Positions 8,648 to 36,557 of a DNA stretch of 40,195 nucleotides are shown one piece after another. Numbering within the stretch: position 1 is the stretch's first letter; every line of letters begins with the position of its first letter. Source of the stretch: Chloroflexota bacterium (GTDB lineage Bacteria > Chloroflexota > Dormibacteria > CF-121); assembly GCA_005889345.1 (NCBI GenBank), contig VBFR01000192.1, forward strand, positions 1-40,195, read 5' to 3'. A program made the position numbers and the translations under genes. The notes beneath the pieces are model-generated. The model did no database searches, was not told where the DNA came from, and saw only the letters and a program-made list of their open reading frames with translations.

Positions 8648-8668
8648 CGCCGCCCTCCTTGCGAAACC

Positions 8669-9454: not shown

Positions 9455-9515
9455 GATGCGCTCGGCCTCGGCGATGACGTCAGCTGCCGGGACGTTGCCT
9501 GGGCTGGTGGCCGTC

Positions 9516-14921: not shown

Positions 14922-14925
14922 GGTG

Positions 14926-16146: not shown

Positions 16147-16186
16147 CGAATCTCATCCTCCTTCCATAGATGAACGGTAATCTTAG

Positions 16187-16227
16187 GTATACGCCGAAAG
16201 TCTCGTCTGAGATGCGAACTCTGTCAA
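16187..16227 (-). promoter_or_regulatory. Candidate promoter and GTATAC site upstream of the ADH-mttB block
   Basis: On the minus strand TTGACA (16227-16222) is a consensus -35 box overlapping the stop of the kinase-like gene. Seventeen bases on, GAGACT (16204-16199) is a weak -10. GTATAC (16192-16187) lies just downstream; it is a palindromic core often seen in operators of FCD-type GntR regulators, and a GntR gene heads this gene run. The 77-bp spacer holds nothing else. Confidence 0.35.
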
Positions 16228-19569: not shown

Positions 19570-19598
19570 GCGCGCGCCGCTCCGGTCAGAACGAACGA

Positions 19599-21242
19599 CT
19601 ACTCAACGGGGATCTCCTGATGGATGCGAGCCAGGTCGATGCCCTGGCGCTTGCGCACCACGCGGGCGACGACGTAGATGACGACGGCCGCCAGGTAGGT
19701 CACGAGGAAGTAGATCGGCGACGAGGCGTTCAGCGAAAACGCGGTGCCGTAGACGGCGTTGAACGACCACTCGGCGAGCATGAACACCAGGAAGATGGCG
19801 CTCACCACGCCGGTGATGGTGATCACCGGGATACCGGCGATCCTGAAGCGGGCGATCGGCGAGTTCTCGAAGATGTCCTTCCTTCGCCACGGCATGATGG
19901 CCGCCGCGACGACGGTCCCCAGGAACGTGATCGCGATCACGCCCGTCGCCCACAGGAAGATGCCCTGGAAGTTCGGCCGGTACGCCCAGATGGCGCTGAC
20001 CACGAGTGATGGCACGATCATGAGGATCAGCGAGCCATAGGGGACGCGCCGCTTGGCCGAAATGTTCGCGGCCCACTCCGGCAGCACCCGGTCGAAGGCC
20101 GCGGCGAAGATGACCCGGGTCGAAGACAGGAAGAGCGTTCCGGCCCAGCCGAAGAACCAGAGACCCATGACGGCGATCAAGAGCGCTTGGAACAGATGGT
20201 TACCGACCAGCCAGCCGGCGAACATGACCGGGTAAGGCCAGATCGGGATCGGCGGCGCCGCCCCGCCCACCAACGAGTTCCAGTATGCCCCGTTTGCCGC
20301 GTTGTAGAAGTCCCACCCGATGGTCTTGACGATCAGCAGGATGACGACGGCAACCAGCGCGACGGTCACCCACAACCCCCAGAACATGGCGTTAAAGACC
20401 TTGCGGTACTCCTTGGCGCCACGAACCTCGCCGTAAAGGGTCGCGCCCCAGACCGGCCAGAGCAAGTAGAAGGCGAGGAAGGGAAGGAGAAGGAAGGTCG
20501 CCCCGATCCCAAAGCTGCCGAAACTGATGCCGCCAGCGCCGGCTTTGGCGCCCACCGCGAGGGTGTTCGCGTAGGCATCGCCAGAAGCGCCGAAGAGCGA
20601 GGCGGCCTCAGTATTGAAGGCCTTCACGAACGCATCGTGGCTGGAGAAGAGCAGCAAGCCGGCCATGACCACGAGACCCGCCAACCCGAGCCAGAAGCAG
20701 AACTTCTGGATCTTCGCGTAGGTTTCCATGCCCATGGTGATGACCAGGCTGACGAAGGCGAGCACGATTAGGCAGCTGACGAAGACTCCCGTCCCGCTGC
20801 CGAAGAAGGTGGCGACCCCGGTCCAACCGATCGTGTAGGCCAGCGGAGCGAAGAACTGCACGACCAGGATGTTCGCGTAGATAGGCGTCCACAACCACAG
20901 CGTGAACCACCAGCCGGTGATCGCCAGCACGAAGCCTGCGCCACCGCCCAGGATGCGGCTCTGCCAGGCGTAGTCGCCGCCTGCGCGCGGCATGGCGCTG
21001 ACGAGTTGCGCGTAGGTGATGACCAGAAACGTCGTGAGCACGCCAGTGATGAGCACGGCAAGGAGCAACTGGCCTTTTGGAATCGCGTAGGCGAAGGACA
21101 TGCCGTAGAGGCCGAGCGTAATCAGGTTGACGGACCAAAATGAATACAGGAAGGCGTCGAATGTCGACCAGGCTTTGACGAGCCCGGTGGCGTTCCGCAA
21201 GAACAGCGTTTGCCTTGGTGGACTCGCTGTCGTTGTCGCCAT
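19599..21242 (-). CDS. APC-superfamily amino acid/amine permease
   Basis: A 547-residue integral membrane protein with about twelve hydrophobic segments. The N-terminal part has LSAMPRAGGDYAWQSRILGG-like helix-3 features (observed VSAMPRAGGDYAWQ), diagnostic of the APC amino acid-polyamine-organocation family. The start ATG at 21242 has GGAGGT five bases upstream. The substrate is not evident; its position ahead of oxidase A suggests an N-methylated amino acid or amine. It is 30 bp upstream of oxidase A and probably cotranscribed. Confidence 0.85.
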   Translation of the reverse strand: MATTTASPPRQTLFLRNATGLVKAWSTFDAFLYSFWSVNLITLGLYGMSFAYAIPKGQLLLAVLITGVLTTFLVITYAQLVSAMPRAGGDYAWQSRILGGGAGFVLAITGWWFTLWLWTPIYANILVVQFFAPLAYTIGWTGVATFFGSGTGVFVSCLIVLAFVSLVITMGMETYAKIQKFCFWLGLAGLVVMAGLLLFSSHDAFVKAFNTEAASLFGASGDAYANTLAVGAKAGAGGISFGSFGIGATFLLLPFLAFYLLWPVWGATLYGEVRGAKEYRKVFNAMFWGLWVTVALVAVVILLIVKTIGWDFYNAANGAYWNSLVGGAAPPIPIWPYPVMFAGWLVGNHLFQALLIAVMGLWFFGWAGTLFLSSTRVIFAAAFDRVLPEWAANISAKRRVPYGSLILMIVPSLVVSAIWAYRPNFQGIFLWATGVIAITFLGTVVAAAIMPWRRKDIFENSPIARFRIAGIPVITITGVVSAIFLVFMLAEWSFNAVYGTAFSLNASSPIYFLVTYLAAVVIYVVARVVRKRQGIDLARIHQEIPVE

Positions 21243-21263
21243 GTTTACCTCCGAATGATTAGT

Positions 21264-21295
21264 GTCGAACGTTATCAATGACGTGGTCGAGCGTT
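21264..21295 (-). repeat. Tandem imperfect repeats upstream of the permease gene
   Basis: GTCGAACGTT (21264-21273) and GTCGAGCGTT (21286-21295), given on the plus strand, differ at one base and have a 22-bp period, two helical turns. They occupy the 75-bp gap between the phosphoesterase stop and the permease start, so they may bind a regulator on one DNA face. The protein is unknown. Confidence 0.4.
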
Positions 21296-21317
21296 TGGTG
21301 CTTTAGCCTTTCACCTC

Positions 21318-22250
21318 CTAGCCGTTGACCAGTTGGTAATTCTTGATGCCCTTCTTCGGATCGAGCTCGATGATCGATGAAAGGAGCATGCCTTCTTCGT
21401 ACGCGCTGCCGGGGTTGATGGAGAGCGTCTTGCCGAGCCGGGTGATTCCCTTGCCTTCATGGATGTGACCGTGCAGTGAGAGCATCGGCTGGTATTTGTC
21501 AATCGCTTCGCGCACGGCCTTGGAGCCGACGTGTCGAAGCGCCCGGCCCCCGTGCAATGGCCGCAGATTCTCATCCAGCGCCGGCGCTTCGTCGAGGGCG
21601 GTGCCGAACGGCGGCGGATGAAAATTGAAGATGGCCCGGCTCATGTCCTTGACGTCGCGGAGCATCGGCTCCATCCGTTTGGTCAGCTCCTCTTCCGGCG
21701 CCTCGCGATAGGTGTGCCACGGCGTCGGGTTGGCCCAGCCGGAGGAGATCATCTCGTAGCCGCCGATGTCGATCACCTTGCCCTCGGCCAGCTCAACGCG
21801 ACTGGCGTTGGCGATCACCTCGTCGATCTCGATCTCGTCGTCGTTGCCCGGCGCTACGAAGACGCGGACCTTGCTGTCTTTCAGCTTCTCCTCGGCCATT
21901 TGCATCCAGCGCTCGACCGTCTTGCACATCTGCTCGGTGAACAGGGTCTGGACCTTCGCCGGGTCTTTCTCGAGCTCGGCAACCTGCGCGGAGGTCATCC
22001 GCACCGGGTAATAGCCCTTGCGCTGCACCTGGCTCTCGACTTCGGCGACCTGGTCGCGGCCGACCCGCTGCGAGACGCCCGACAGCGTCAGCTCGTAGCT
22101 ATCGCCGTCTTCGACGATCGGGATCATTGCCTTGCCGGTCATGTCACCCCCGCAGATCAAGACGTCGGCGTTGTAGAACTTCGCTGCGTTGATGAACTTC
22201 CGCCAGCAGACTTCGGATCCGTGCAGGTCGGTGGCGTAAAAAACTCTCAC
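21318..22250 (-). CDS. Calcineurin-like metallophosphoesterase
   Basis: A 310-residue protein with the dinuclear-metal phosphoesterase motifs in order: YATDLHGS (about 5-12), CGGDMTG, APGNDDEIE and HGHIHEG near the C-terminus. The core is interrupted by a helical insertion of about 80 residues between the second and third motifs. It has no signal peptide, so it is cytoplasmic. The start is a GTG at 22250 preceded by AGGAGGAAAGA. The substrate is unknown; release of choline from a phosphorylated form is a possible but untested link with the amine genes. It lies directly after the GntR gene. Confidence 0.8.
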   Translation of the reverse strand: MRVFYATDLHGSEVCWRKFINAAKFYNADVLICGGDMTGKAMIPIVEDGDSYELTLSGVSQRVGRDQVAEVESQVQRKGYYPVRMTSAQVAELEKDPAKVQTLFTEQMCKTVERWMQMAEEKLKDSKVRVFVAPGNDDEIEIDEVIANASRVELAEGKVIDIGGYEMISSGWANPTPWHTYREAPEEELTKRMEPMLRDVKDMSRAIFNFHPPPFGTALDEAPALDENLRPLHGGRALRHVGSKAVREAIDKYQPMLSLHGHIHEGKGITRLGKTLSINPGSAYEEGMLLSSIIELDPKKGIKNYQLVNG

Positions 22251-22904: not shown

Positions 22905-23143
22905 GACCGTGTGCAGCGTCCCCTCCTCGCTGTTCCGGTGCGATCGACGAGCCGCGGTCAGCCCGCTCGCCAACGTCCCTCCCCGTATATCGGCCGTACA
23001 CGAGCGATATATCGGCCTGCAACGAACGCTAGCACCCCGGCGGTATGGCGTCAATCGTTTCGTTTCGTCGCCGTCGTCGGTCCGTCACGGGCCCCGTAAG
23101 GCTGCAAGGTTGGGCGAAAGTTCGCGGCTGTTCAATCTGGTAG
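22905..23143. promoter_or_regulatory. Divergent intergenic region between gntR and the tad genes
   Basis: About 239 bp without a convincing gene. It contains the tandem TATATCGGCC repeats annotated separately. No strong sigma70 promoter could be chosen for either side, and the tad side shows no clear Shine-Dalgarno before the ATG at 23144. Confidence 0.5.
22986..23017. repeat. Tandem TATATCGGCC operator candidate for GntR
   Basis: TATATCGGCC occurs at 22986-22995 and again at 23008-23017, an exact 10-bp repeat with a 22-bp period. The second copy lies within the perfect palindrome CGATATATCG (23005-23014). The AT-rich core stands out in otherwise GC-rich DNA just upstream of gntR, which fits an autoregulatory operator or a promoter. 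Confidence 0.5.
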
Positions 23144-23698
23144 ATGGCACGCCACGTCCTGTTCCCTCGGCGGCGGGCTCAGGGGCAGCACGCCCAGTCG
23201 ATGGTTGAGTTCGCCCTGATCGCCCCCTTCCTGTTCTTCGTGATGTTTCTGCTGATCGACTTCGGCCGCCTCGTCTACACGTACGCGGCCGTGTCCTGGT
23301 CCGCTCGGGAGGCTGCCCGGGTGGTATCGATGCAGCCCCAGGCTGACAGCGATTGCCTGGCGCTGAGCATCGCGGAATCGACGGCCCAGGGCTTTATCCT
23401 TCGTCCGGACGAGAACTCTGTCGTAAACAACTCCGATCCCAACGGCACCGGAACCCCCAATGCGGATCCGCGGCCGCCCGCGGGTATGGGGAAGATCTAC
23501 ATCTGGCCCGCCGTGGCGACGGCCGCGCCCGCTGATGCCCCCGCCAATTGCAGCGGGTCGCCCCGCGCGATCTCGCCCACGGTCCAGGATGTCGCGGTGC
23601 AAATCAAGTACACCTTCCTTCCACTGATGCCGTTGATCAGCAACATCATCCCGCCGATCACGATCACATCGATCAGCGTGGTGCACACGGAGTACTGA
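23144..23698 (+). CDS. TadE-family pseudopilin-like protein
   Basis: A 184-residue protein with a short basic N-terminus, then AQSMVEFALIAPFLFFVMFL, the TadE-type hydrophobic helix with the glutamate at position +5 of the processing-site region. A second motif, YTYAAVSWSAREAARV, follows. Tad pili use TadE and TadF as minor pseudopilins processed by a TadV-type prepilin peptidase. No tad ATPase or prepilin peptidase lies in this window, so it may belong to a distant assembly locus. Two bases separate it from the next gene. Confidence 0.82.
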   Translation: MARHVLFPRRRAQGQHAQSMVEFALIAPFLFFVMFLLIDFGRLVYTYAAVSWSAREAARVVSMQPQADSDCLALSIAESTAQGFILRPDENSVVNNSDPNGTGTPNADPRPPAGMGKIYIWPAVATAAPADAPANCSGSPRAISPTVQDVAVQIKYTFLPLMPLISNIIPPITITSISVVHTEY

Positions 23699-23699
23699 C

Positions 23700-26273
23700 A
23701 TGGGTTGGATACGCGGACACCGGATCGATCATCCTGGGCAGCGGCGCGGCCAGGCGATGGTGATTTTCGCGTTGATCTTCGTGGTCCTGGTGGGCTTCGC
23801 CGGCCTGTCGCTCGATGCCACTCACCTCTACCTGGTCCAGCACACGGCTCAGAAAGCGGCCGACGCTGCGGCGCTCGCCGCCGGTAAACGTCTTGCCGGC
23901 GCGACGCAGCAGTCTCCCGTCCCGAACTCAAACGACCTCGCCGCCGTCGCGGCGCATGATTTTGCCGGCGCGGACGGCTTTATCACGACGCGAAGCACGG
24001 CGTGCGACACCACCGTCACCAGTGGAAGCCTGACCCGCTTTACGACCTGGTGGTACGACACCGCGGGGGTCAGCTGCGGCGCGAGCTCGGGTTTCAACAC
24101 AGCGGTCGAGATCGCCGTGCCGCCGTTCAGCTTGACACCGCACTGCCAGACCACGCCCTACAACTGCATGCAGGTCATGGTCCGCTCGAATGTCCAGAAC
24201 TTCCTTGTCGGCACGCTGGGGATTCCGACCACGATGGTCACGGCATCCGCGACCGTCTACGCGCAGCCGACCGGTACCAGCTATGACTACCCGTTCCCCG
24301 TGGCGCTCTACCTCTACGAACCGGCGGTGACGAGCATGCTCTTGTGCCCCGCCGGACAGCAGTGCTTCGACCGGACCAAGGTTCCGGCAAGGACACTGAT
24401 GAGCTGCAGCAGCGCCGGCGCCAACTGCCCAACATACTGGGCGCGGCCCGAGGCGTCGAGCATCATCGTCGGCGTGGATGGCACCACACTCAATCCACCG
24501 CAGGACGTCGTGGCCGTGGAGTCGAACGGTGACACCGTGATGCAGGGTGCCCTGGGCGATCAGTACTGCGATCCCTACGGCGTCGGGGTGACCGGTTGCA
24601 CGCTCGGAGCAGCGATCGGCAGCAAGGGTTACGCCATTGCGCCTGGTGCGATCGCGTACTGCGCGACCGTCGGTGGCGCCGGCACGCGGCTCCCCATCCC
24701 CTGCATTGCCGCCGGACCAGGCGGCACACCAACCACGCCGATCTACGGCAACGAGACGACGTTTGCCAGCCATACCTGGACGCCCCGCGTCGACCTGACC
24801 GGCCTGAGGACCTGCGGATCGCTGCTCTTGAACGGCGGTACCGTGGCCAGCGGGCTGTCGAGCCCGACGTGCGCGCCCCCGGCCGCCGAGCCCTACGCCG
24901 TCTTGCCGGGGATTTACGACTGGATCGTCATCAATCACGGGCAGTACACCTTCGAGCCCGGCATCTATGACATCACCGGGGTCGCCCGAGTCAACAGGAA
25001 CGCCAGCGGTTTCGCCGACGGCATCGATCACAGCCGCGAGACCGCGACCGACTGGGACCTGTGTACGACCGCGGCGGGTAGCGTTACGGCTTGCAACGGC
25101 GTCGGCGCCCAGCCGCTGCTGACCGCCGGCGTCTGGTTCGGGCACGGCAGTCTGAGCTACACGGCATCCGTCACGACCACCTACGGCACCTGCACCGCCG
25201 GCACGGTGATGACGGGCGGCGGTGGCGACAACACCGTGGTCAGCGCGCATGGAGTGGTCTTCCGCTTCGAGAGCGGCTCGAAGGGCTATGTCTCGACGGC
25301 GGAAGTGTCGTCCGTCGGCATGACCTCACCGGGCCTCGGCCAGATGCGGGCGGTGGGCGGCGCGCCGCTGCTCTTCGACATGGAGAACAACAACTTCATC
25401 CACATCGATGCCAGCGCGGCTCGGGCGCCGGCTTCACCTCAGCTGAACCAGTATTCGGGCATCATCTACCAGATGTGGAACGCGACCGCCGGCGGTGTTG
25501 AAGTCAACCCCGGCTTCCCAACCAACTTCGACGGCGAGGGCGGCGGCACCTACAACAACGCCGTCGTCGGCCAGGTCTACGCCTACAGCTACACGCACTT
25601 CGGCAGCATCGGGGCCTTCGACTTCAGCAACGGCACCGGTGGCGCCGCCACTCCGTCGGTCGTTACCAGCGGCAACCTGGAGAACTCGATCCTGGTCAGC
25701 TCAGTCCTCGTCGCCGCGAGCGGGACCAACGAGTCGCTGGTCGTGAAATACACCGATGAGTGGGCGCTGGACGCTTACGACGCGTACATCAAGATCAATG
25801 CCAACAGCCCGGTCTACTTCTCGGACGGGATCTGGAGTCCTCGTCCCGGTCTCGGTGCAACCCTGCCCCCCAACGGGGCCGGAAACATTCCCAGTGACGT
25901 GAACCCCCGAGTTCCGAGCGGCGGCGCGCCATCGCCCTACACCGGCGGTCCCGACACGGCGGGAAACCCCGACTGGACGATGCATTACAACACCGCCAGC
26001 ATCTATGGTCCCGCCGACGGCAGCAGCTTCCGGATTCAGGGCAACTGGACCTGGGGCCACCAGCGAGACATCCTAGGCAGCGTGACCGGAAACAACAACG
26101 CCACACTGACCTACACCTTCCCGGTGCCCGCCGGCCAGACGGTCACGATCAGCATGTTCATGACCGACGGTGATCGGTGTGGCGACTATGTGACGGCGAC
26201 CTGGACCTTCAACAATATTGGAACGCCGGCCCCGGGCGTGCAAGTGGTGGGCGCGGTGCGGCTCGAGCAATGA
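23700..26273 (+). CDS. Large TadG-like pilus-associated protein
   Basis: An 857-residue protein. A basic leader is followed by GQAMVIFALIFVVLVGFAGL, a TadE/TadG-type transmembrane helix, then YLVQHTAQKAADAAALAAGK, a hallmark of TadG N-termini. The remaining 750 or so residues are an exported region rich in Gly, Thr, Asn and aromatic residues with many cysteines, suggesting a disulfide-bonded beta-rich structure. No von Willebrand domain motif (DxSxS) was recognised, unlike many TadG proteins. It may form a tip or surface adhesin of a Tad pilus. Its stop overlaps the next gene (ATGA). Confidence 0.75.
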   Translation: MGWIRGHRIDHPGQRRGQAMVIFALIFVVLVGFAGLSLDATHLYLVQHTAQKAADAAALAAGKRLAGATQQSPVPNSNDLAAVAAHDFAGADGFITTRSTACDTTVTSGSLTRFTTWWYDTAGVSCGASSGFNTAVEIAVPPFSLTPHCQTTPYNCMQVMVRSNVQNFLVGTLGIPTTMVTASATVYAQPTGTSYDYPFPVALYLYEPAVTSMLLCPAGQQCFDRTKVPARTLMSCSSAGANCPTYWARPEASSIIVGVDGTTLNPPQDVVAVESNGDTVMQGALGDQYCDPYGVGVTGCTLGAAIGSKGYAIAPGAIAYCATVGGAGTRLPIPCIAAGPGGTPTTPIYGNETTFASHTWTPRVDLTGLRTCGSLLLNGGTVASGLSSPTCAPPAAEPYAVLPGIYDWIVINHGQYTFEPGIYDITGVARVNRNASGFADGIDHSRETATDWDLCTTAAGSVTACNGVGAQPLLTAGVWFGHGSLSYTASVTTTYGTCTAGTVMTGGGGDNTVVSAHGVVFRFESGSKGYVSTAEVSSVGMTSPGLGQMRAVGGAPLLFDMENNNFIHIDASAARAPASPQLNQYSGIIYQMWNATAGGVEVNPGFPTNFDGEGGGTYNNAVVGQVYAYSYTHFGSIGAFDFSNGTGGAATPSVVTSGNLENSILVSSVLVAASGTNESLVVKYTDEWALDAYDAYIKINANSPVYFSDGIWSPRPGLGATLPPNGAGNIPSDVNPRVPSGGAPSPYTGGPDTAGNPDWTMHYNTASIYGPADGSSFRIQGNWTWGHQRDILGSVTGNNNATLTYTFPVPAGQTVTISMFMTDGDRCGDYVTATWTFNNIGTPAPGVQVVGAVRLEQ

Positions 26274-26845
26274 GCGCGAAGCAGCGGCGGCGGCGAGCCC
26301 AGGCGCTGGTCGAGACGGCGATGATCCTGCCCGTTCTGGTGCTTCTGATGCTCGGTGCGGCCGACCTGGGGCGCGCCTTCTATCTCAAGCTCGAGATGTC
26401 CGGCGCCAGCCGGGCCGGCATGCGCATGGCCGTGCTCGGCCCGGTCGTGGACATTGGAAACGCGGTTCGGTCTGAGCCGAACTCGGCGATCCCCAACAGC
26501 GCAGCAGCCTGGGGCTCGATGGCCCAGGGGGGGTCGAATGGCGATTGCACCTCCGCCACCCAGCGTTGCGGCGACCCGACGGGCTGCCGCCCCGGTTCCG
26601 CTTCCGCCTGGGGCGGCGTCAACCAGCAGGCCTGCTTCGCGGTGCGAACCTGCATCACCTGGACGAGCGGCTCCTGCGCCAGCTACAGCGCGTGGGGGGT
26701 TCGGCCCAACGCCGGCGCCGATCAGGCCGTCGAGGTGTTTACCGTCTACCGCTTCCTGCCAGCCACGCCACTCATCGCCAACTTCGCCGGTGGTACCGGC
26801 ACGTTCTATCTCACGGCTGACACGTTAGGCCTGCAACTGTATTGA
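26270..26845 (+). CDS. TadE-family pseudopilin-like protein, cysteine-rich
   Basis: A 191-residue protein with the TadE motif AQALVETAMILPVLVLLML after an arginine-rich leader, then FYLKLEMSGASRAGMRM. The exported part holds six cysteines within about 55 residues (GDC, QRC, TGC, QQAC, RTC, GSC), an even number suggesting disulfides. With the two upstream genes it forms a three-gene pseudopilin operon of the TadE-TadG-TadE kind. Confidence 0.8.
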   Translation: MSAKQRRRRAQALVETAMILPVLVLLMLGAADLGRAFYLKLEMSGASRAGMRMAVLGPVVDIGNAVRSEPNSAIPNSAAAWGSMAQGGSNGDCTSATQRCGDPTGCRPGSASAWGGVNQQACFAVRTCITWTSGSCASYSAWGVRPNAGADQAVEVFTVYRFLPATPLIANFAGGTGTFYLTADTLGLQLY

Positions 26846-26849
26846 TCTC

Positions 26850-26865
26850 GCCCCTTTCGTGGGGC
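26850..26865 (+). terminator. Short GC hairpin after the tad-like operon
   Basis: GCCCC (26850-26854) and GGGGC (26861-26865) pair across the loop TTTCGT, four bases after the last pseudopilin stop. It may end that transcript, although no T-run follows. Confidence 0.4.
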
Positions 26866-26874
26866 AAGCCGCGG

Positions 26875-26907
26875 ATGGCCGCCGACGATATACCGCTCAG
26901 CGGCCAT
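26875..26907 (+). promoter_or_regulatory. Inverted repeat covering the start codon of the FMN-binding gene
   Basis: ATGGCCGC (26875-26882) and GCGGCCAT (26900-26907) are perfectly complementary around a 17-nt spacer that includes CGATATACCG. The right arm ends in the first two bases of the ATG at 26906. In RNA it would hide the start codon; in DNA it could be an operator. Confidence 0.45.
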
Positions 26908-27322
26908 GGCACGAAAGCGACGTCCTTCCACAGAGCTCATGGTGCTCGGCGCCTCGGCAGTCCTGGGCGTCTACGCAGCTGGCTATCTGATCACCGAGCC
27001 GGGGGCCGGCTTGCTGGATCAGATCGTCAGCGCGGCCCCATCCGCGATCGCGGCTACCGGCAGGCTTCGTGACGGGACGTACCTCGGACAAGGGCAGAGC
27101 CGGTTCGGCGCCGTCTACGTCACGGTGGCGATCACGCAGGGCCGGATCAGCCAGGTATGGATCAACGCGGTGACGACGACCTTTCCCAGCCAGGCGATCG
27201 ATGCGCTGCGCGACCAGGTGGTGGTGCGGCAATCGGCGGCGGTCGACCTGGTCAGCGGCGCGACGGCCAGTAGCAGCGCATTCGTGCAGGCGATCCAAGC
27301 CGCCCTCCGGCAGGCCCAGTGA
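26906..27322 (+). CDS. Membrane-anchored FMN-binding domain protein
   Basis: A 138-residue protein with a basic N-terminus, one transmembrane helix (about 11-30) and a C-terminal FMN-bind domain. The flavinylation motif is DLVSGATASS, with Thr120 in SGAT the expected attachment point for a covalent FMN, as in NqrC and RnfG. The anchor orientation places the flavin outside the cytoplasmic membrane. The next gene is apbE, the FMN transferase that recognises this motif, and the third encodes an RnfD-like protein, so the three form a compact electron-transfer unit. No clear Shine-Dalgarno is present and an inverted repeat covers the start. Confidence 0.83.
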   Translation: MARKRRPSTELMVLGASAVLGVYAAGYLITEPGAGLLDQIVSAAPSAIAATGRLRDGTYLGQGQSRFGAVYVTVAITQGRISQVWINAVTTTFPSQAIDALRDQVVVRQSAAVDLVSGATASSSAFVQAIQAALRQAQ

Positions 27323-28251
27323 CGTCTGCAATCGCCCACCGCCACCGCCCTGCGCGCGCCCTGATGGACACGGTCGTGTCGATCGACATCGTGGGTGACC
27401 CCGGTCCCACCGTCGAACGGGGTGCGATCGATCGAGCCTTCGGGTGGTTTTCCGCCGTGGAGTCGGCGTGTACCCGGTTCGACCCGACGAGCGAACTGAT
27501 GCGTCTGTGCGCCACGATTGGCAGCCCGGTGCGTGTCAGTCCCATTCTCTTCGAAGTGGTGCGGTTCGCCCTGGCCGTTGCGCGCTTGACCGACGGCGCG
27601 TTCGACCCCACCGTCGGTGGGCTGATGGAAGCGCGCGGCTTCAACCGCAGCTACCGTACCGGCCTACGGACGGCGTCTGCCATCGCGGAAGGTCAGCAGC
27701 CCACCTACCGCGACGTCGAGGTAGACGAAACCGCGCATGCGATCACGCTCCATCGTCCCCTCGTCGTCGATCTTGGGGCGGTGGCGAAGGGCTTCGCGAT
27801 CGACCTGGCGGCTCGGGAACTGGCTGGCACAGGTGGCTACGCGATCGATGCCGGCGGTGACATCTCTGTCCGCGGTCGCCGCGGCGACGGATCACCCTGG
27901 CGCGTCGGCGTTCGACACCCCGCGCAACCTGATGCGCTCTGGTGCATCCTCCAGCCAGAGGATGCTGCCGTCTGCACCTCCGCTGGCTACGCGCGACGGA
28001 TTGACGCGCTCGAGCACCATCTTCTCGACCCGCGCACCGGCCGGTCGCCGCGCGATCTTGTCAGCACGACGGTGGTCGCACCCAGCGCAATGCTCGCCGA
28101 CGCCCTCTCGACCGCCGCCTTCGTCCTGGGCCCCGAAGCCGGTCTGCGGTTGCTGGCACGGCAGGGTGTCGATGGACTGACGCTCGACCGCGCCATCGCT
28201 CCCGCCATGACCGCTGGGTTCGCCGGGATGATCGAGCGCAGGTCGCCGTGA
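27319..28251 (+). CDS. apbE: FAD:protein FMN transferase ApbE
   Basis: A 310-residue ApbE-family flavin transferase. Visible family motifs include MDTVVSIDIV, DPTVGGLMEARGF, VDLGAVAKGFAIDLAA and YAIDAGGDISVRG, the last two being the FAD- and magnesium-binding regions. It transfers FMN from FAD to a threonine in an SGAT motif, here most likely Thr120 of the preceding protein. No signal peptide or lipobox is visible, which is unusual if the acceptor domain is outside the cell. The GTG start overlaps the preceding stop (GTGA), so acceptor and enzyme are translationally coupled. Confidence 0.88.
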   Translation: MTSAIAHRHRPARALMDTVVSIDIVGDPGPTVERGAIDRAFGWFSAVESACTRFDPTSELMRLCATIGSPVRVSPILFEVVRFALAVARLTDGAFDPTVGGLMEARGFNRSYRTGLRTASAIAEGQQPTYRDVEVDETAHAITLHRPLVVDLGAVAKGFAIDLAARELAGTGGYAIDAGGDISVRGRRGDGSPWRVGVRHPAQPDALWCILQPEDAAVCTSAGYARRIDALEHHLLDPRTGRSPRDLVSTTVVAPSAMLADALSTAAFVLGPEAGLRLLARQGVDGLTLDRAIAPAMTAGFAGMIERRSP

Positions 28252-29075
28252 TGGTCGAAGCCCGACGCTGGATTCGATCGCCCAAGGGCAACCTCACCGC
28301 GCTGCTTTGTCTTCTGCTGATCGTCGCCATACCGGTCGAGGGCATCGCTCGCATCGCCAGTCAGCTCGTGGTCGCGGTGGCGTTATCCGTCGGGGTCGAC
28401 GTAGCCGTTTCGCTGGTCAGACGCGGAAGCCTGTCCCTTCCGGATGGAGGCCTGATCACCGGCTTGATGATCGGCTTGATTCTGGTCCCGGGCGCGCCGA
28501 TGGCGGCGGTCCTGACGGCAACCGCGCTGGCGGCCGCGTCGAAGCACGCACTTCGGACCCCGCAATCGAACCTCTTCAATCCGGCGGCCTTCGGTCTGCT
28601 CGCCTCGCTGCTGCTGGTGCCGGCCGGCCAGAGCTGGTGGGGGGCGCTGGCCGACCTCCCGGCGCCCTTCGTCGCCGTCCTGCTCGTCGGCGGCAGCGTC
28701 ATCGCCTGGCGCGTCAGCAAGCTCCCCATGGTCCTCGCCTTCTTCGCCGGCTACTTTGCCGCCTTCACACTGGCCGCGATCGTGGTGAACGGACCGAGTG
28801 CCAGCCTGGCCGCGGTCTTCCGGCCACCCTTCCTCGATGCCACGCTCTTCTTCGGCTTCTTGATGCTCACCGACCCGGCCACGTCGCCCAACCGCCTCGA
28901 GGACCAGCTCGTGTTCGCCGCCGCGACCGCCGCAGTCAGTGCCTCCGCGTTCGTGACGATTCATGGCCTCCATTACCTCTTCATCGGCTTGCTGGTGGCC
29001 AATTTGTGGTGGGCCTGGCGTCGGGCCACGGCGCGACCCGCCGGCCAGCTGGCGCCGTCCCACGCGGGACCGTAA
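28248..29075 (+). CDS. RnfD/NqrB-like membrane protein
   Basis: A 275-residue integral membrane protein with eight or so hydrophobic segments. The stretches TPQSNLFNPAAFGLL and FFGFLMLTDPATSPNR match conserved regions of RnfD and NqrB, which carry flavin and electrons across the membrane. The SGAT motif that binds FMN in true RnfD/NqrB is not seen. It likely passes electrons between the membrane quinone pool or a cytoplasmic donor and the outward-facing FMN protein. The start is a GTG at 28248 (or the adjacent ATG at 28251) overlapping the apbE stop. Confidence 0.75.
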   Translation: MMVEARRWIRSPKGNLTALLCLLLIVAIPVEGIARIASQLVVAVALSVGVDVAVSLVRRGSLSLPDGGLITGLMIGLILVPGAPMAAVLTATALAAASKHALRTPQSNLFNPAAFGLLASLLLVPAGQSWWGALADLPAPFVAVLLVGGSVIAWRVSKLPMVLAFFAGYFAAFTLAAIVVNGPSASLAAVFRPPFLDATLFFGFLMLTDPATSPNRLEDQLVFAAATAAVSASAFVTIHGLHYLFIGLLVANLWWAWRRATARPAGQLAPSHAGP

Positions 29076-29118
29076 GCTCCTCGTTATGCTGTGATCCGGC
29101 GTTAAGGACGGAGGAGGG

Positions 29119-31641
29119 ATGCGCGTGACCAGCCTGCCCGACCGGGCAAGGGTCGTCGTGATCGGCGCCGGCATCGTCGGTAACAGCATGGCCTACCACC
29201 TGGCGCAGCAGGGTTGGAAGGAGATCGTCCTGATCGACAAGGGCCGACTTCCCAACCCGGGCGGTTCGACGGGGCACGCCTCCAACTTCATCTTTCTCAC
29301 CGACCATTCGAAGGAGATGACGCTCTTCACGCTGGACAGCGTGCGCCAGTACAAAGAGCTGGGTGTCTTCACCCAGAGCGGCGGCGTCGAGGTCGCTCGC
29401 ACCGCCGAGCGGATGGACGAGCTCAAGCGGCGCATGGCATCGAGCAAGGCCTGGGGTATCGACGCCGAGCTGGTATCGCCGGCCGAAGTGAAAGGCCTCG
29501 TGCCCTACATCAACGAAAAGATCATCCTCGGCGGTTTCAGCACGCCAGGCATCGGCACCGTCGACTCGCTGCGGGGCGGGACCTTGATGCGCGAGCAGGC
29601 AGAGGCGTCGGGCGCCCTCACCGTGATGGCGAGCACTGAGGTGATAGGCATCGTTGTCGAAAACGGCCGGGTCAGCCGTGTGCGGACGGACAAGGGAGAG
29701 ATCGAAACCGAGACCGTGGTCATTACGAGCGGCATCTGGAGCCCGCGTCTCGCCCGCATGGCTGGCGCCTCCATCCCGCTCAGCCCCGCCGTGCACCAGA
29801 TGATCAGTGTCGGGCCGGTGCCGCTCTTTGCCGACACCGTCGGCGAGATCAAGTACCCGATCATCCGCGACATGGATACCAACGGGTACGAGCGCCAGCA
29901 TGGCGGCGACCTCGAGGTGGGCTCTTACGACCACCGTCCGATCCTGTGGGAACCCGACGATATCCCGTCGATCGGCCAGTCCAAGCTGTCGCCGACCGAG
30001 TTGCCCTTCACCAAGGAGGACTTCGACGAATCGCTGGAGCACGCGCTCGAGCTCATCCCCGACATCCTGGGCGACCCGAGTGTCGGCATCCGGCACGCTA
30101 TCAACGGTCTGCTCTCGCTGACCCCGGACGGGTTGCCGCTGCTGGGGGAGACGCCAGAGGTGAAAGGGCTGTGGTCGGTGGCCGCGATTTGGATCAAGGA
30201 AGCCCCCGGCATCGCGCGCTGCGTCGCCGAGTGGATGACGTCGGGCGTCCCCGAGATCGACCCTTCGGGATCGGACATCGCGCGCTTCTACGATCACCAG
30301 AAAACCGGGGCGCACATTCGTGCACGTACGGCGGAGGGTTTCAACAAGACCTACGGCATCGTCCACCCGCGCGAGCAGTGGGAATCGAATCGCCGGGTTC
30401 GCGTCAGCCCGTTCTACGAGCGCGAGAAGGCGCTCGATGCCGTCTTCTTCGAAACCGCGGGCTGGGAACGTCCCAACTGGTACGCCTCGAACAAGTTGCT
30501 GCTCGAGGAGTACGGCGAGCGGGTGATGCCGCGCCGCTACGAGTGGGACGCGCGCTGGTGGTCGCCGATCATCAACGCCGAGCACCTGGCGATGCGCGAC
30601 CGCGTGGGCATGGTCGACCTGTCGGCCTTTGCGGTCTTCGATATCGCGGGCAGCTGCGCGCTCGATTACATGCAGAAGATGTGCGTGGTCCAGATGAATG
30701 TCCCGGTCGGGCGTGTCATCTACACCTCACTGCTGAACACGGCCGGCGGGATCAAGGCCGATCTCACGGTAATGCGGTTGGGTCCGAACCACTTCCGTGT
30801 GGTGACCGGCGGCGCCGACGGGATGCGCGACCGCAAATGGTTTACGGATCACCTGCCCGATGATGGCGCGGTCCAGCTTACCGACCTGACCTCGAGCTGG
30901 GCCACCATCGGCGTCTGGGGGCCGCGCGCTCGCGACCTGCTGCAATCGATCACCGGCGCCGACGTGTCGAACGAGGGCTTTGCGTTCGGGACCTGCCGCT
31001 TCATCGACATCGGTCCGGTGCGCGCGCTGGCATCGCGCATCTCCTACGTCGGCGAGCTGGGCTGGGAAATTTACGTGCCCTTCGAGCAGGGCGCGCGCCT
31101 CTGGGACGCGATCTCCGAGGCCGGGCAGCCGCACCGGATCGCGCCGGTCGGCATCGGTGTCTATGGCACCACCGGCCGTCTAGAAAAGTGCTACCGCGCC
31201 TACGGCAACGAGTTGGAGCAGGAGTTCAACCTGGTGGAAACGGGTCTTGCCCGGCCTCAGGTCAAGCCGCAGGACTTCATCGGCAAAGAGGCGTACCTCA
31301 AGCAGCGCTCCGAGCCGCCGGCGGTCACGCTCTGCACGCTGACGATCGACGACAACACCTCGCGCTCGGGTTTCAAGCGCTTCATGATGGGACGCGAACC
31401 GGTGCTGTCCCCGCAGGGCAAGCGGCTCGTCGACCGGCACGGTCGGGGCTCCTATGTCACCAGCGCCGGGTCAGGCCCATCGGTCGGCAAGACCATCCTG
31501 ATGAGCTTCCTTCCACCGGAACAGGCGAAGGCCGGCACCAAGCTCGCGGTCGAATATTTTGGCGAGCAGTATCCGGCAACCGTCGCCGTTGTCGGTCCCA
31601 CGCCGCTCTTCGACCCGCAGAACGCCCGCGTGCGGAGCTAG
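29119..31641 (+). CDS. DMGDH/sarcosine-dehydrogenase-like FAD and GcvT-fold protein C
   Basis: An 840-residue DAO-GcvT fusion. The FAD fold starts VVVIGAGIVGNSMAYHL (12-28). The flavin-histidine region reads GGSTGHASNF (about H53), clearly different from protein A. The GcvT domain has LLNTAGGIKADLTVMRL with the conserved aspartate and SYVGELGWEIYVPFEQGARL. ETF beta and alpha follow at 11 and 2 bp spacing, so this paralogue almost certainly reduces that ETF. It is preceded by GGAGGAGGG directly before the ATG. The substrate is an N-methyl amino acid by family; the divergent flavin site means it may not be dimethylglycine or sarcosine. Confidence 0.86.
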   Translation: MRVTSLPDRARVVVIGAGIVGNSMAYHLAQQGWKEIVLIDKGRLPNPGGSTGHASNFIFLTDHSKEMTLFTLDSVRQYKELGVFTQSGGVEVARTAERMDELKRRMASSKAWGIDAELVSPAEVKGLVPYINEKIILGGFSTPGIGTVDSLRGGTLMREQAEASGALTVMASTEVIGIVVENGRVSRVRTDKGEIETETVVITSGIWSPRLARMAGASIPLSPAVHQMISVGPVPLFADTVGEIKYPIIRDMDTNGYERQHGGDLEVGSYDHRPILWEPDDIPSIGQSKLSPTELPFTKEDFDESLEHALELIPDILGDPSVGIRHAINGLLSLTPDGLPLLGETPEVKGLWSVAAIWIKEAPGIARCVAEWMTSGVPEIDPSGSDIARFYDHQKTGAHIRARTAEGFNKTYGIVHPREQWESNRRVRVSPFYEREKALDAVFFETAGWERPNWYASNKLLLEEYGERVMPRRYEWDARWWSPIINAEHLAMRDRVGMVDLSAFAVFDIAGSCALDYMQKMCVVQMNVPVGRVIYTSLLNTAGGIKADLTVMRLGPNHFRVVTGGADGMRDRKWFTDHLPDDGAVQLTDLTSSWATIGVWGPRARDLLQSITGADVSNEGFAFGTCRFIDIGPVRALASRISYVGELGWEIYVPFEQGARLWDAISEAGQPHRIAPVGIGVYGTTGRLEKCYRAYGNELEQEFNLVETGLARPQVKPQDFIGKEAYLKQRSEPPAVTLCTLTIDDNTSRSGFKRFMMGREPVLSPQGKRLVDRHGRGSYVTSAGSGPSVGKTILMSFLPPEQAKAGTKLAVEYFGEQYPATVAVVGPTPLFDPQNARVRS

Positions 31642-31652
31642 AGGCCGGCTCG

Positions 31653-32417
31653 GTGAACGTCCTGGTCTGCGTCAAGCGCGTCCCCGCCACCGCCGGCCAG
31701 ATCACGCTGACGGCCGACGCCCAGGACATCGACACGCGCTATCTCGGATTCACGATCAGCCCCCACGAGGAATGCGCGGTCGAGGAAGCCGTGCGAATGA
31801 TCGAAGCGCACGGTGGCAGTACGACCGTGCTGACGCTGGGGCCGGAGGCCGCGACCGACCAGCTGCGCGATGCCATGGCGCTGGGCATCGAGCGCGCGAT
31901 CCTGCTGCAAAGCGATGGCCGCGAGTGGGATCCGGTAGCGACCGCGTCGGCGATCGTCGAAGCGATCGAGGCCGAAGGCGCCGCCGGTCGAAGCTACGAC
32001 CTCGTCCTCTTCGGAAACGAGTCGGCGGACAGCGCCGGCTACCAGGTGGGTGTGCGCGTCGCCGACGCTCTCGATCTTCCGTGCGCGACCGGCATCAAGG
32101 CGATCGAGCTCAGCGACGGCCGCGCGACGGTCCGCCGCCAGACGGAATCAGGCTGGGAGTCCGCCGAATTAGCGCTCCCGGCCGTGGTGACGGTGAAGGA
32201 AGGCCTCAACCTGCCGCGCTATCCGTCACTCCCCGGGCGACTCAAGGCGAAGAAGAAAGAGGTCGAGCGGATCACGCCACAGTGGCGGGATGGGGGGCTG
32301 GAAAAGGTCCGCCTCAAGCTGCCGGTGCAGGCGGAACACACCGTCGAGATCCTGGGAAAGAACGGCGACGCCGGAGCCCAGCTTGTGGAAGTCTTTCAGC
32401 GCCTGCGGTTGCTTTGA
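31653..32417 (+). CDS. etfB: Electron transfer flavoprotein subunit beta
   Basis: A 254-residue protein opening NVLVCVKRVPATAGQI, the typical ETF beta start, with the signature VKEGLNLPRYPSLPGRLKAK near residue 190, the region that recognises partner dehydrogenases. It binds AMP and, with EtfA, one FAD. The GTG start lies 11 bp after the oxidase C stop. It is the expected electron acceptor of the DMGDH-like proteins. Confidence 0.92.
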   Translation: MNVLVCVKRVPATAGQITLTADAQDIDTRYLGFTISPHEECAVEEAVRMIEAHGGSTTVLTLGPEAATDQLRDAMALGIERAILLQSDGREWDPVATASAIVEAIEAEGAAGRSYDLVLFGNESADSAGYQVGVRVADALDLPCATGIKAIELSDGRATVRRQTESGWESAELALPAVVTVKEGLNLPRYPSLPGRLKAKKKEVERITPQWRDGGLEKVRLKLPVQAEHTVEILGKNGDAGAQLVEVFQRLRLL

Positions 32418-32419
32418 TC

Positions 32420-33415
32420 ATGGTCCTCGCGTTCATCGAGCACGTCGCCGGAGCGCCGACCATGCTGTCCCTCGAGGTGCTCACGATGGCAAACCGCCTC
32501 GCTGGGGAGATGGGCACCCAGCTCGAGGCCATCGCCATTGGTCCGAACGCGGCCGCCGCCACCGGGATCCTCTCTTCGTACGGGGTGAGCACCCTGCACG
32601 TTGCGGACGACGGACGGTTGGCCGACTACGCGCCGGCCGCCTGGGCGCACGCGATCGCCGAGCTTGTCCGCGAGGTCGATCCCGACGTCGTCATCGGAAC
32701 GGCGAGCGACCGTGGTGGCGAGGTGATGGCCCATGTCGCGACGCGCATGAAGTTGCCGATGGCCGCCAACTGCACCGAGATCGCACCCGGCGATCCTTTC
32801 ACCGTGATACGACAGCGTTGGGGTGGCAGCCTGCTCGAGGAGGCGCATCTCAAGGGCACGATCAAGCTCCTGACGCTCGCGCCTCACGCGCTCACGGCGG
32901 CGGCGTCGCCCAGCCGTACCGAGGTCACGACGCACGCGTTTTCGCCAGCGCTCGATGACAAAGACTTTCGCGTGCGACTTCAGCCCCAGGTCGAGGTAGA
33001 TACCGGAAAGATCTCGCTCGCACAGGCGCGCGTGGTCGTCGGCGGGGGCCGCGGTGTGGGCAGCGCCGAGGGATTCGCCGCGCTCGAAGAATTGGCAGGC
33101 CTGCTCGGCGGCGCCGTCGGCTGCTCGCGCGCGGTGACCAGCCTCGGCTGGCGGCCACACAGCGACCAGGTGGGCCAGACCGGGACGCGGATCGCGCCCG
33201 ACCTCTACATCGCCTGCGGCATTAGCGGCGCGATCCAGCACATGGTCGGCTGCCGCGCGGCGAAGCACATCCTCGCGATCAATACGGACGCCGGCGCGCC
33301 GATCGTGGCCCAGGCCGACTATGCGGTGATCGGCGATGTCCAGAAAGTGCTCGCCGCCGTCAACGCCGAAGTCCGGCGGGTCAAGGCAGGCGAGCCGAGC
33401 CGCAGTCCGGCTTGA
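32420..33415 (+). CDS. etfA: Electron transfer flavoprotein subunit alpha
   Basis: A 331-residue protein. The N-terminal half is ETF-like, and the C-terminal FAD domain shows the family signature VGQTGTRIAPDLYIACGISG, followed by HMVGCRAAKHILAIN and DAGAPIVAQADYAVIGDV. It carries the FAD of the heterodimer. No ETF:quinone oxidoreductase gene is in the window, so the onward route to the respiratory chain is not shown. The gene ends at an inverted repeat facing the convergent cyclase gene. Confidence 0.93.
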   Translation: MVLAFIEHVAGAPTMLSLEVLTMANRLAGEMGTQLEAIAIGPNAAAATGILSSYGVSTLHVADDGRLADYAPAAWAHAIAELVREVDPDVVIGTASDRGGEVMAHVATRMKLPMAANCTEIAPGDPFTVIRQRWGGSLLEEAHLKGTIKLLTLAPHALTAAASPSRTEVTTHAFSPALDDKDFRVRLQPQVEVDTGKISLAQARVVVGGGRGVGSAEGFAALEELAGLLGGAVGCSRAVTSLGWRPHSDQVGQTGTRIAPDLYIACGISGAIQHMVGCRAAKHILAINTDAGAPIVAQADYAVIGDVQKVLAAVNAEVRRVKAGEPSRSPA

Positions 33416-33420
33416 GCCGG
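33407..33420. terminator. Inverted repeat between convergent etfA and cyclase genes
   Basis: CCGGCT (33407-33412) and AGCCGG (33415-33420) pair perfectly across TG and span the etfA stop. It lies between two convergent genes 14 bp apart, the position expected for a shared terminator, but there is no T-run on either strand. Confidence 0.35.
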
Positions 33421-33429
33421 GCTCTCTCG

Positions 33430-34959
33430 CTAGGAGCGCTCGTCCGGGACTTGCCCAGGCGAAGACCCGTACAAACGCCACGTGCCAGGGAGTCCCTTCA
33501 GCGCCCGCTCACCCAGGTCGCGGAATGCCCCGTCGGGATTGCCAAGCGACTCATGGACGATCTGAGAGACAACGATCTCGTTCGGGCCGGCGGTCGCCAT
33601 CACGCGAGCCGCGACGATCACGGCCACACCGCTGACCTTTTCACCACGAAGCTCGCATTCACCCAGATGCAGCCCGAAACGACTGTCGAGGCGGAGCTCA
33701 CGTAGTCGGTCGCGAAGCCACTGCGCCGAGTGGAGGCCGTTGCCCGGTCGATCGAACACCGCGAAGAATCCGTCCCCCGCGGTATCCATCTCACTTCCCT
33801 TGAATCGCCGCAAGCCTCGTCTGACAGTCGCACGGTAGGTCGTGAGCGCCTCGCGCCAGCGCTCATCGCCCATCGTCACGGCGCGAGCCGTTGAATCACA
33901 GATGTCCGTAAAGAAGAGCGTAAGGAGGGCCCGCGGTGGGAGCAGGCGATCGACAACGGGTCGGATGCGCCGTTGTAACGGTCCAAAGGCGACGGCCGCG
34001 GCAACGATCAGTGGGATTGTCATGATGTCGGACGAATGGCCGGTCGCCGCCTCGATGATGCGCTTGGAAACCGCGCTCAGACCGGCGAACGCGATAACTA
34101 GGAGGACCGTCGCCGAGCCATACAGGATCGTGCGATTCACCACCAGGTCGATGTCGTACAACCTGAACCGGATCATCGCGATGCCAAAGAGCAATGCCGA
34201 GACGATGCTGGCCAGCTGAACCAAAATGTCGGCTAGCGTCGCAAAGACCTGGTTGTGCGTCCCAAACTCGACGAACGACCAGAGGGCGTACGCCGCAACG
34301 ATGAGGATCAGGCCGTAGAAGATCCACTTGGTCTGCCGTCGCTCGGTGGGCGAGGAAACGCTGTTGAGCCGATACGCCTGCGCGCCCAGACCCGAGAAGA
34401 GGAACGCCAGCAGCACCAGTTGCCAGACACCGCGAGCGACCACGGGATCGACGGCCGTCAGCACAACACCGGCCACGGTCCAGGCGGCGAACACCACGAG
34501 AAGCCAGCGGGTCCAACTCGGGACGAAGCGGCCGTTAGGAAAGGTGTAGAGCACCGCGACGATCGCGATCAGCGCCAGCTTGATCGCTGCGCGGGTGGGG
34601 AGAGACCAGGAGTCCGCGAGGGAAACTGAGCTCCACGGACCCGCGATGGCGCAGCCGAAGAGCACGGCCTCGGCCGACGCGAGCAGGCCGAACCAGTCTC
34701 GCGAACGATACCGGAGGATAACCGCGGCAACCGCCGCGCTGGCCAGGGGTACGGCCAATGCGGCCGCGATATCGATGCCGACGAGGGTTGCCGGAGGCCG
34801 GTCCCCGGAAGCGCGCGGCGGCTTGAGCAGCGTGCCATCCACCCAGTGCGGCACCGCGTGGAGGAACGTCGCGATCGCGAGAAGAAGGACAACCACGTAC
34901 GCGAGCCGTGCCAGAACCAACCGGCCGCCGTGAAGGGTGGCGACGGTCCCGACTGCCAT
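33430..34959 (-). CDS. Membrane class III adenylate/guanylate cyclase-domain protein
   Basis: A 509-residue protein. The first 310 or so residues hold about nine hydrophobic segments of a sensor type also seen in some histidine kinases. The C-terminal class III cyclase domain has the metal aspartates in FFTDICDST and DTAGDGFFAVF, and GLHLGECELRGEKVSGVAV followed by AARV. The base-selecting lysine of adenylate cyclases is replaced (EMDTAGDG), as in a known subfamily, so ATP specificity is uncertain. The ATG at 34959 has no clear ribosome-binding site. Divergent from the iclR operon. Confidence 0.83.
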   Translation of the reverse strand: MAVGTVATLHGGRLVLARLAYVVVLLLAIATFLHAVPHWVDGTLLKPPRASGDRPPATLVGIDIAAALAVPLASAAVAAVILRYRSRDWFGLLASAEAVLFGCAIAGPWSSVSLADSWSLPTRAAIKLALIAIVAVLYTFPNGRFVPSWTRWLLVVFAAWTVAGVVLTAVDPVVARGVWQLVLLAFLFSGLGAQAYRLNSVSSPTERRQTKWIFYGLILIVAAYALWSFVEFGTHNQVFATLADILVQLASIVSALLFGIAMIRFRLYDIDLVVNRTILYGSATVLLVIAFAGLSAVSKRIIEAATGHSSDIMTIPLIVAAAVAFGPLQRRIRPVVDRLLPPRALLTLFFTDICDSTARAVTMGDERWREALTTYRATVRRGLRRFKGSEMDTAGDGFFAVFDRPGNGLHSAQWLRDRLRELRLDSRFGLHLGECELRGEKVSGVAVIVAARVMATAGPNEIVVSQIVHESLGNPDGAFRDLGERALKGLPGTWRLYGSSPGQVPDERS

Positions 34960-35008
34960 CGTGTGAGCTTAAGTCCAGCGATCTGCCGTACTCGGGCACG
35001 TGGCGCCG

Positions 35009-35023
35009 GGTCTTGCCAAGACC
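35009..35023. promoter_or_regulatory. 15-bp palindrome over the iclR promoter -35 box
   Basis: GGTCTTG-C-CAAGACC is a perfect palindrome with 7-bp arms. It covers the -35 box of the iclR promoter, the position expected for an autoregulatory IclR operator. It lies in the 91-bp divergent gap, so it might also affect the cyclase gene. Confidence 0.55.
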
Positions 35024-35041
35024 GAAAAGGGCCGCTATAGT
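35013..35041 (+). promoter_or_regulatory. Sigma70-type promoter of the iclR-corrinoid operon
   Basis: TTGCCA (35013-35018) and TATAGT (35036-35041) are separated by exactly 17 bp. The ATG of iclR is at 35051, only nine bases after the -10 box, so the transcript would be leaderless or nearly so. No Shine-Dalgarno is present, consistent with this. Confidence 0.65.
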
Positions 35042-35050
35042 TGTTGTGTC

Positions 35051-35839
35051 ATGAGCACCGGTTTCGTGACGCGCAACAAAGTGCAGTCGCTGGACCGGGC
35101 GTTGGAGATCCTCAAGCTGCTGGGGACCGAGCCCGAAATGCGGGTCACCGACCTCGCTCGCCGGCTGGAAGTGCACAAGTCGACCGTGTTCCGCCTGCTG
35201 TCCACGCTCCAGGAGCACGGCCTCGTGGAGCAGAACCCCAGTACCGAGAAGTACCGACTCGGATATGGGCTAGTGCGGCTGGCCGGCTCGGTTGTTTCCG
35301 AGCTCGACCTATCCCGCGCCTCCCGCCCCGTGCTGGAGGAGCTCGCTCTGCGCACCGGCGAAACGGTCAACCTGGCGATCCTGCAGGGGAACCAGGTGGT
35401 CAACATCGACCAGATCGCCGCGCCCAACCTGGTCGTCAACGTCAATTGGGTAGGGAAGCAGACGCCGCTCCACGCGACCTCGAACGGCAAGGTCCTGCTC
35501 GCCTACCTTCCCGCGGATGAGCGTCGCCGTCTCCTCGCCGCCTCGCTCCCGCGGTTGACGCCGCGTACCATCACCGACCCGCGAACGCTCGAGAAGCAGC
35601 TGCGCAGGGTGGTCGACGAGGGATTTGCCTTCACCCTCGAAGAGCTCGAGCTCGGCTTGAATGCCGTAGCCGCCCCGGTTCGGGCTGCCGACGGCCGGGT
35701 TCAGGCGGCGGTCAGCGTCGCCGGGCCTTCGTATCGAGTGACCCCTCAGCGGCTGACCGAGCTTGGTGACTTGACGAAAAAGGCGGGCGAGGCCATCTCG
35801 CGACGAATGGGCTACATCCCTGGAGGAGGCGAGGCATGA
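35051..35839 (+). CDS. IclR-family transcriptional regulator
   Basis: A 262-residue regulator of standard length. The winged helix covers about residues 9-75 (ALEILKLLGTEPEMRVTDLA, LEVHKSTVFRLLSTLQEHGL), and the effector-binding domain follows, with TPLHATSNGKVLLAYLP and AVAAPVRAADGRVQAAVSVAG. It is the first gene of the corrinoid operon and overlaps the next gene (ATGA), so it is made together with the pathway and probably controls it in response to a substrate or intermediate. A palindrome sits on its promoter. Confidence 0.92.
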   Translation: MSTGFVTRNKVQSLDRALEILKLLGTEPEMRVTDLARRLEVHKSTVFRLLSTLQEHGLVEQNPSTEKYRLGYGLVRLAGSVVSELDLSRASRPVLEELALRTGETVNLAILQGNQVVNIDQIAAPNLVVNVNWVGKQTPLHATSNGKVLLAYLPADERRRLLAASLPRLTPRTITDPRTLEKQLRRVVDEGFAFTLEELELGLNAVAAPVRAADGRVQAAVSVAGPSYRVTPQRLTELGDLTKKAGEAISRRMGYIPGGGEA

Positions 35840-36552: not shown

Positions 36553-36557
36553 AAACG

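Follow-up and report, generated by a model that had tools for sequence, protein, structure and literature searches.

What might a flavin carrier, the enzyme that would load it and a single RnfD-like membrane protein do together, and does it matter that their genes stand directly before a DMGDH-ETF operon? These questions are raised by a 40,195-nucleotide stretch of DNA (hereafter the window), which is one entire contig of a Chloroflexota metagenome bin that is 88% complete. An FMN_bind protein, an ApbE and a short NqrB/RnfD-like protein are encoded there side by side (Table 1), with a 4-bp overlap (GTGA) at each gene junction and Pfam scores above the curated cut-offs for all three. Open reading frames and Pfam families bear out the coordinates, strand, overlaps and families that the original prediction gave for this trio. 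Its claim that no other Rnf or Nqr subunit is present also held, both for the window frames scanned and genome-wide in the 88%-complete bin, where neither PF02508 (RnfA/E, NqrD/E) nor PF04060 (RnfB Fe-S) found a match. FMN_bind occurs once in the bin and ApbE three times, and two further, distant RnfD-like frames lie on contigs C279 and C31. We give about even credence to the view that the trio is a self-contained, apparently acquired cassette serving as a flavin conduit between the quinone pool and an outer partner.

Table 1. Features of the cassette and its surroundings (window positions)
Feature	Position	Strand	Basis or remark
6.04-kb segment absent from congeners: TadE-like, TadG-like, TadE-like, FMN_bind, ApbE, RnfD-like	23036-29077		homology break
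FMN_bind protein, 138 aa	26906-27322	+	PF04205 33 bits, cut-off 22
Predicted single transmembrane anchor, residues 12-29	26939-26992	+	hydropathy 1.83, charge count
SGAT flavinylation motif (predicted)	27254-27265	+	direct reading; Thr120 codon 27263-27265
ApbE, FAD:protein FMN transferase, 310 aa	27319-28251	+	PF02424 216 bits
Short NqrB/RnfD-like protein, 275 aa, 10 helices	28248-29075	+	PF03116 40 bits, cut-off 27.7
Asn111 of FNPA motif	28578-28580	+	opposite C. tetanomorphum RnfD Asn124; invariant 81/81
Asp209	28872-28874	+	opposite RnfD Asp248 (riboflavin/Na+ site); invariant 81/81
DMGDH-like, EtfB, EtfA genes, outside cassette	29119-33415	+	syntenic copies ~73-95% identical in family without cassette

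The trio recurs across bacterial phyla

Within the class, 110 genomes contained no close relative of the window RnfD-like protein (the next best matches reached at most 54 bits and were mostly longer proteins), and no short RnfD homologue was found in 14 congeners (best ~40 bits). A set of 400 genomes drawn from the phylum yielded 16 other matches at E 1e-12 or better, 11 of them at 36-45% identity. As a single query against species genomes the protein gave no match; it was an alignment of RnfD-like proteins that retrieved the relatives, 446 related stretches in 84,980 species genomes. We kept the best 80, picked by RnfD similarity alone. The order FMN_bind, ApbE, short RnfD was found in 73 of these best 80 of 446 loci, a recurrence far beyond what chance would produce. 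The remaining loci comprise four with FMN_bind and RnfD without ApbE, two in which the contig ends at ApbE and one with RnfD alone. The best 80 belong to Bacillota (the cultivable Paenibacillus, Neobacillus and Alicyclobacillus, and others), Acidobacteriota, Gemmatimonadota, Opitutae (Verrucomicrobiota) and Chloroflexota, and one record bears the label Gammaproteobacteria. At least five bacterial phyla share the trio as a conserved unit, a widespread and under-described variant. The earlier description of a minimal flavinylation cassette is supported.

Neighbours of the best 80 loci were clustered, and 132 immediate neighbours were scanned with Pfam. A conserved extra partner gene beside the trio was ruled out for the 80 loci, where the shared neighbours are two-component regulators only, mainly in Bacillota.

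RnfD-like genes also occur in other settings. A class-conserved protein of ~560-600 aa (L006-L033; in the bin itself L054, 5063-6742 of G000:C31) combines an RnfD-like N-terminal half with a large C-terminal part, and the L054 copy has no Pfam family match and no FMN_bind neighbour. Another Chloroflexota family has RnfD-like proteins without FMN_bind (L074-L078), one of whose genes (L075) adjoins TPR and FG-GAP/ASPIC_UnbV proteins; a literature search for an UnbU/enediyne link found nothing.

A predicted outward-facing flavin carrier

The FMN_bind protein consists of an N-terminal membrane anchor, a short linker and a C-terminal FMN-binding domain. By charge count, the anchor carries a net +3 before and -2 after the helix, an N-in/C-out pattern, and most of 24 FMN_bind relatives likewise have positive charge ahead of the helix and neutral or negative residues behind it. 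Since these flanks are positive-inside, the FMN domain should face outward, in agreement with the predicted outward-facing FMN acceptor. Direct reading confirmed that Thr120 is the Thr of SGAT, a sequence of the [S/T]GA[S/T] acceptor type of ApbE-dependent covalent flavoproteins. A motif of the SGAT type is present in 88/88 FMN_bind sequences, the window included (SGAT 76, TGAT 4, SRAT 4, SGAS 3, SGCT 1). The structural model is confident only from residue ~55, with the domain (~55-138) at pLDDT >90, and the nearest solved folds are the covalent-FMN domains SaFMN3 domain 2 and CbFMN4 domain 1.

The four proteins with SRAT in place of SGAT come from loci L071, L072, L073 and L147. In 44 of the 88 sequences, mostly from Acidobacteriota and Gemmatimonadota (e.g. 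L090, L138), two cysteines in the pattern CxTRY[SP]C stand ahead of the SGAT motif; the window protein and those of Bacillota lack them. The pair could form a disulfide near the flavin.

A short RnfD-like protein that probably keeps a riboflavin site

That the third gene encodes an RnfD-like membrane protein was substantiated by both its Pfam match and its predicted fold. An AlphaFold2 model has ten helices (pLDDT 91.6, pTM 0.88), and its top Foldseek matches are RnfD structures (8rbq, 8ahx, 9eri, 7zc6), followed by NqrB (E 1.8e-4). PF03116 is the sole family found in the 275 residues, which include no C-terminal NAD-binding domain, and most of 95 related short RnfD frames are 256-320 aa long. 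In RnfD of C. tetanomorphum, the linker between the five-helix halves (residues 140-190) bears Thr153, to which flavin is covalently attached; Asn124 and Asp248 are part of a Na+/riboflavin site (PMC9588780). In a profile alignment with this protein, the linker bearing Thr153 is unmatched by the window protein. A [ST]GA[ST] motif is absent from 93 of the 95 short frames, and the window protein has none. Asn111 and Asp209, paired with the RnfD residues by counting along the printed profile alignment, are invariant (Table 1). NqrB Asp346, a riboflavin ligand (PMC10643135), would be the equivalent of Asp209, as we infer from the ATD/LTD context. With linker and motif missing and the Asn/Asp pair invariant, the sequences indicate that the covalent flavin of RnfD is lost in the short protein and that the riboflavin site is probably kept.

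The same residues bear on whether the RnfD-like subunit couples flavin electron transfer to Na+/H+, as a minimal ion pump or an ion-driven electron pusher. The RnfD fold is retained, and the invariant Asn/Asp pair is the one proposed to bind Na+ in RnfD (PMC9588780). However, the same Asp also holds riboflavin, so that its conservation is not specific to Na+, gating partners of the RnfA/E and NqrD/E type are absent, and the occluding linker has been lost together with its covalent FMN; we regard ion coupling as quite improbable.

The window RnfD-like protein is itself divergent, a point that weighs against the conduit reading. In the tree it sits on a long branch (end branch 0.84) at an uncertain position, the nearest rows by path being Chloroflexota, and three near-invariant positions are changed (P211 to Ala, N157 to Ser, F124 to Val). 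The long branch is consistent with transfer from an unsampled donor. Together with the presence of the cassette in a single genome of the genus, the branch and the substitutions might also suggest that the cassette is an acquired fragment in decay, with no function in this organism. The three frames are nevertheless intact, with their 4-bp overlaps, SGAT, the riboflavin-site residues and the ApbE motifs all preserved, and decay is the reading to which we give hardly any weight.

ApbE without an export signal

Characterised extracytosolic ApbEs are secreted lipoproteins, and cytosolic ApbEs also exist (PMC12052999). The reading frame of the window ApbE opens only at 27274, and, judged by hydropathy and available length, it has no hydrophobic leader, signal peptide or lipobox, the marks of a secreted or lipidated enzyme. 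This arrangement is general: in the 73 loci, a median of 33 nt separates the FMN_bind stop from the catalytic core (M-G/D-T-x-V), too little in nearly all of them for an ApbE signal peptide. Two more ApbEs of the window genome (L213, L214) are equally leaderless, as is the ApbE of an MsrQ-like set in Paenibacillus.

A leaderless ApbE is at odds with a target domain on the outer side unless the flavin is already in place when that domain is exported, and this counts against the conduit reading. There are three ways out: the carrier receives its FMN before crossing the membrane, ApbE leaves the cell along a path not recognised so far, or the carrier faces the cytoplasm. We consider it rather unlikely that the trio is, in full, a distinct and widespread quinone-linked conduit of two structural proteins in which the leaderless ApbE attaches FMN inside and the flavin domain is exported afterwards. 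If true, such a modify-then-export route would be unlike the secreted-ApbE route of characterised systems, and the consistent lack of a leader raises the question at what point, and on which side of the membrane, extracytosolic flavoproteins acquire their FMN.

Relation to known flavin-based systems

By the definitions in the survey of Meheust et al. 2021 (PMC8238504), the cassette is the nearest kin of the two-subunit NQR/RNF-like system and yet lies outside it. That system, described there and by Huang et al. 2024 (PMC11334425), occurs for example in Ktedonobacter racemifer, and one-way transmembrane electron flow has been proposed for it. The two share FMN_bind, a single NqrB/RnfD-like membrane domain without a covalent-FMN site, and ApbE. 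The survey text asks for a PF04205 or ApbE gene in the cluster and for a PF03116 membrane domain, and the window has all of these (Table 1), the last with a fold match as well; the lack of a flavinylation Thr in the membrane domain (PMC11334425) is also found here. The same text grants NQR/RNF-like status only when a C-terminal cytosolic PF00175 domain is fused in the same protein, whereas the window protein ends after ten helices, and it is the absence of this NAD-binding domain that places the cassette outside the definition. Because the class is defined by the fused domain, a cassette found in several phyla falls outside the ten systems named in the survey. We found no paper describing the short form in the open-access literature, a search whose coverage included few subscription journals and no supplementary tables. 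In the same class as the window genome, a fused RnfD-like/PF00175 gene (PF00175 35 bits; L055) adjoins ApbE and fits the published NQR/RNF-like system.

The larger complexes are more distant. With RNF (RnfABCDGE) the cassette shares the RnfD fold, the riboflavin-site residues and an FMN_bind domain like that of RnfG, but it has no RnfC-type neighbour and no RnfD linker with a flavinylated Thr; RnfB, which PMC8238504 requires in the cluster, and RnfA/RnfE are missing from the 88%-complete bin (PF04060, PF02508). Na+-NQR (NqrABCDEF) has the NqrB fold and, in NqrC, a similar FMN_bind domain, whereas the scanned window frames include no NqrF, the cassette carries neither an NqrF-type domain nor the NqrB flavinylation site, and the bin has no NqrD/E (PF02508). 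The MsrQ-like system (ferric-reductase membrane protein, FMN_bind, ApbE) follows the same FMN_bind and ApbE logic, but its conduit is a haem-type Ferric_reduct protein in place of an RnfD-like flavoprotein.

Sets of related composition are found in the genus. One congener (G066, L210) has an MsrQ-like system, a Ferric_reduct/NAD_binding_1, FMN_bind and ApbE set, at a different genomic place, and another (G053, L211) has an FMN_bind-ApbE pair that probably belongs to one as well. In the window genome, an ApbE gene followed by genes for a Ferric_reduct membrane protein and a Complex1_51K (NuoF-like) protein (L213; 3701-6425 of G000:C92) is a possible further flavinylation set without an FMN_bind protein.

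A possible path for electrons

The sequences show which genes these are, their order and conservation, the predicted fold, the motifs gained and lost and the insertion. For the conduit reading, we propose the following scheme, in which flavin occupancy, quinone coupling, direction of flow and the outer partner are what we infer. ApbE would attach FMN from FAD to Thr120 of the FMN_bind protein, whose one N-terminal helix would anchor it with the flavin domain outside the membrane. As membrane conduit would serve the ten-helix RnfD-like protein, with its riboflavin-site residues near the inner face, and electrons would move between the conduit riboflavin and the tethered FMN docked at the outer face. 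The docking idea comes from the model of Huang et al. (PMC11334425) for the fused system, in which the tethered flavin may visit a non-covalent site within the membrane domain. The tethered FMN would then relay electrons to or from an extracytosolic partner encoded elsewhere.

At the inner side, exchange would most likely be with the quinone pool, the alternative being an unlinked cytosolic reductase. We prefer quinone because riboflavin in NqrB passes electrons on to quinone at the rim of the membrane (PMC10643135) and because no reductase gene stands regularly beside the trio: reductase families are not among the commonest of the 132 immediate neighbours. In the alternative, the cassette would be an NAD(P)H oxidase path from the cytosol to the outside, like the NQR/RNF-like complex, and an unlinked gene would provide the NAD(P)H-flavin reductase in trans. 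The fusion of PF00175 to the RnfD-like domain in the nearest described system (PMC8238504 and PMC11334425) and the fused gene beside ApbE in the same class both speak for such a path, but PF00175, too, is missing from the commonest neighbour families, and we treat this reading as possible, if doubtful. If it works, the cassette would be among the simplest transmembrane flavin conduits known, and would separate from the pump the half-reaction of NqrB/RnfD (tethered FMN to riboflavin to quinone).

An insertion beside the DMGDH-ETF operon

The cassette does lie directly before the DMGDH-ETF operon, as the original prediction had it, but the functional link to this operon and to growth on methylated amines that the prediction implied is not supported. 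Homology with congeners ends at ~23035 and restarts at ~29078, just past the RnfD stop codon, and the intervening segment between the GntR and DMGDH genes is unique to the window genome. Five congeners have GntR and DMGDH as divergent neighbours separated by a gap of 0.5-1.6 kb without the insertion; the shortest gaps (L193, L198) contain a small reading frame that we read as SRPBCC-like. The EtfA proteins of congeners and of one member of a sister genus are 74-90% identical, and sequence comparison indicates that the DMGDH-EtfB-EtfA operon is vertically inherited in the genus. The cassette, in turn, was apparently acquired. Neither convincing repeats at the insertion ends nor a tRNA at the insertion was found, and its GC content does not differ. 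Synteny of both flanks with those of congeners, mostly at 78-97% identity, ruled out a mis-binned contig; a mis-assembly confined to the 6-kb segment is possible. Tad-like pseudopilin genes (TadE, TadG, TadE; Pfam TadE/Tad) at 23144-26845 share the insertion with the cassette.

Could the cassette nevertheless serve the operon, for instance as a membrane acceptor for reduced ETF? The two are adjacent on the same strand, an EtfB-EtfA-FMN_bind-RnfD tandem without ApbE exists in another Chloroflexota genome (L067 of G121, 6573-9966), and none of 15 genus genomes has a PF05187 ETF:quinone oxidoreductase. That lack, however, affects the cassette-free congeners equally, which have DMGDH-EtfBA all the same, and ETF genes do not recur beside the other loci of the best 80 of 446, L067 being the only other case we saw of ETF beside FMN_bind-RnfD. 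With the cassette inside an insertion and the congener operons lacking it, the adjacency is best read as an accident, and service to the operon as very unlikely. CCG proteins were rejected as an alternative ETF:quinone route, since the two found look GlpC-type and GlcF-type by sequence and neighbours and neither looks like an ETF acceptor. The surrounding one-carbon locus (window 9516-22250 and 29119-40195) encodes an MttB-like methyltransferase, three DMGDH-like proteins, ETF, a corrinoid protein, MTHFR, a pterin-binding methyltransferase and a RACo-type activator.
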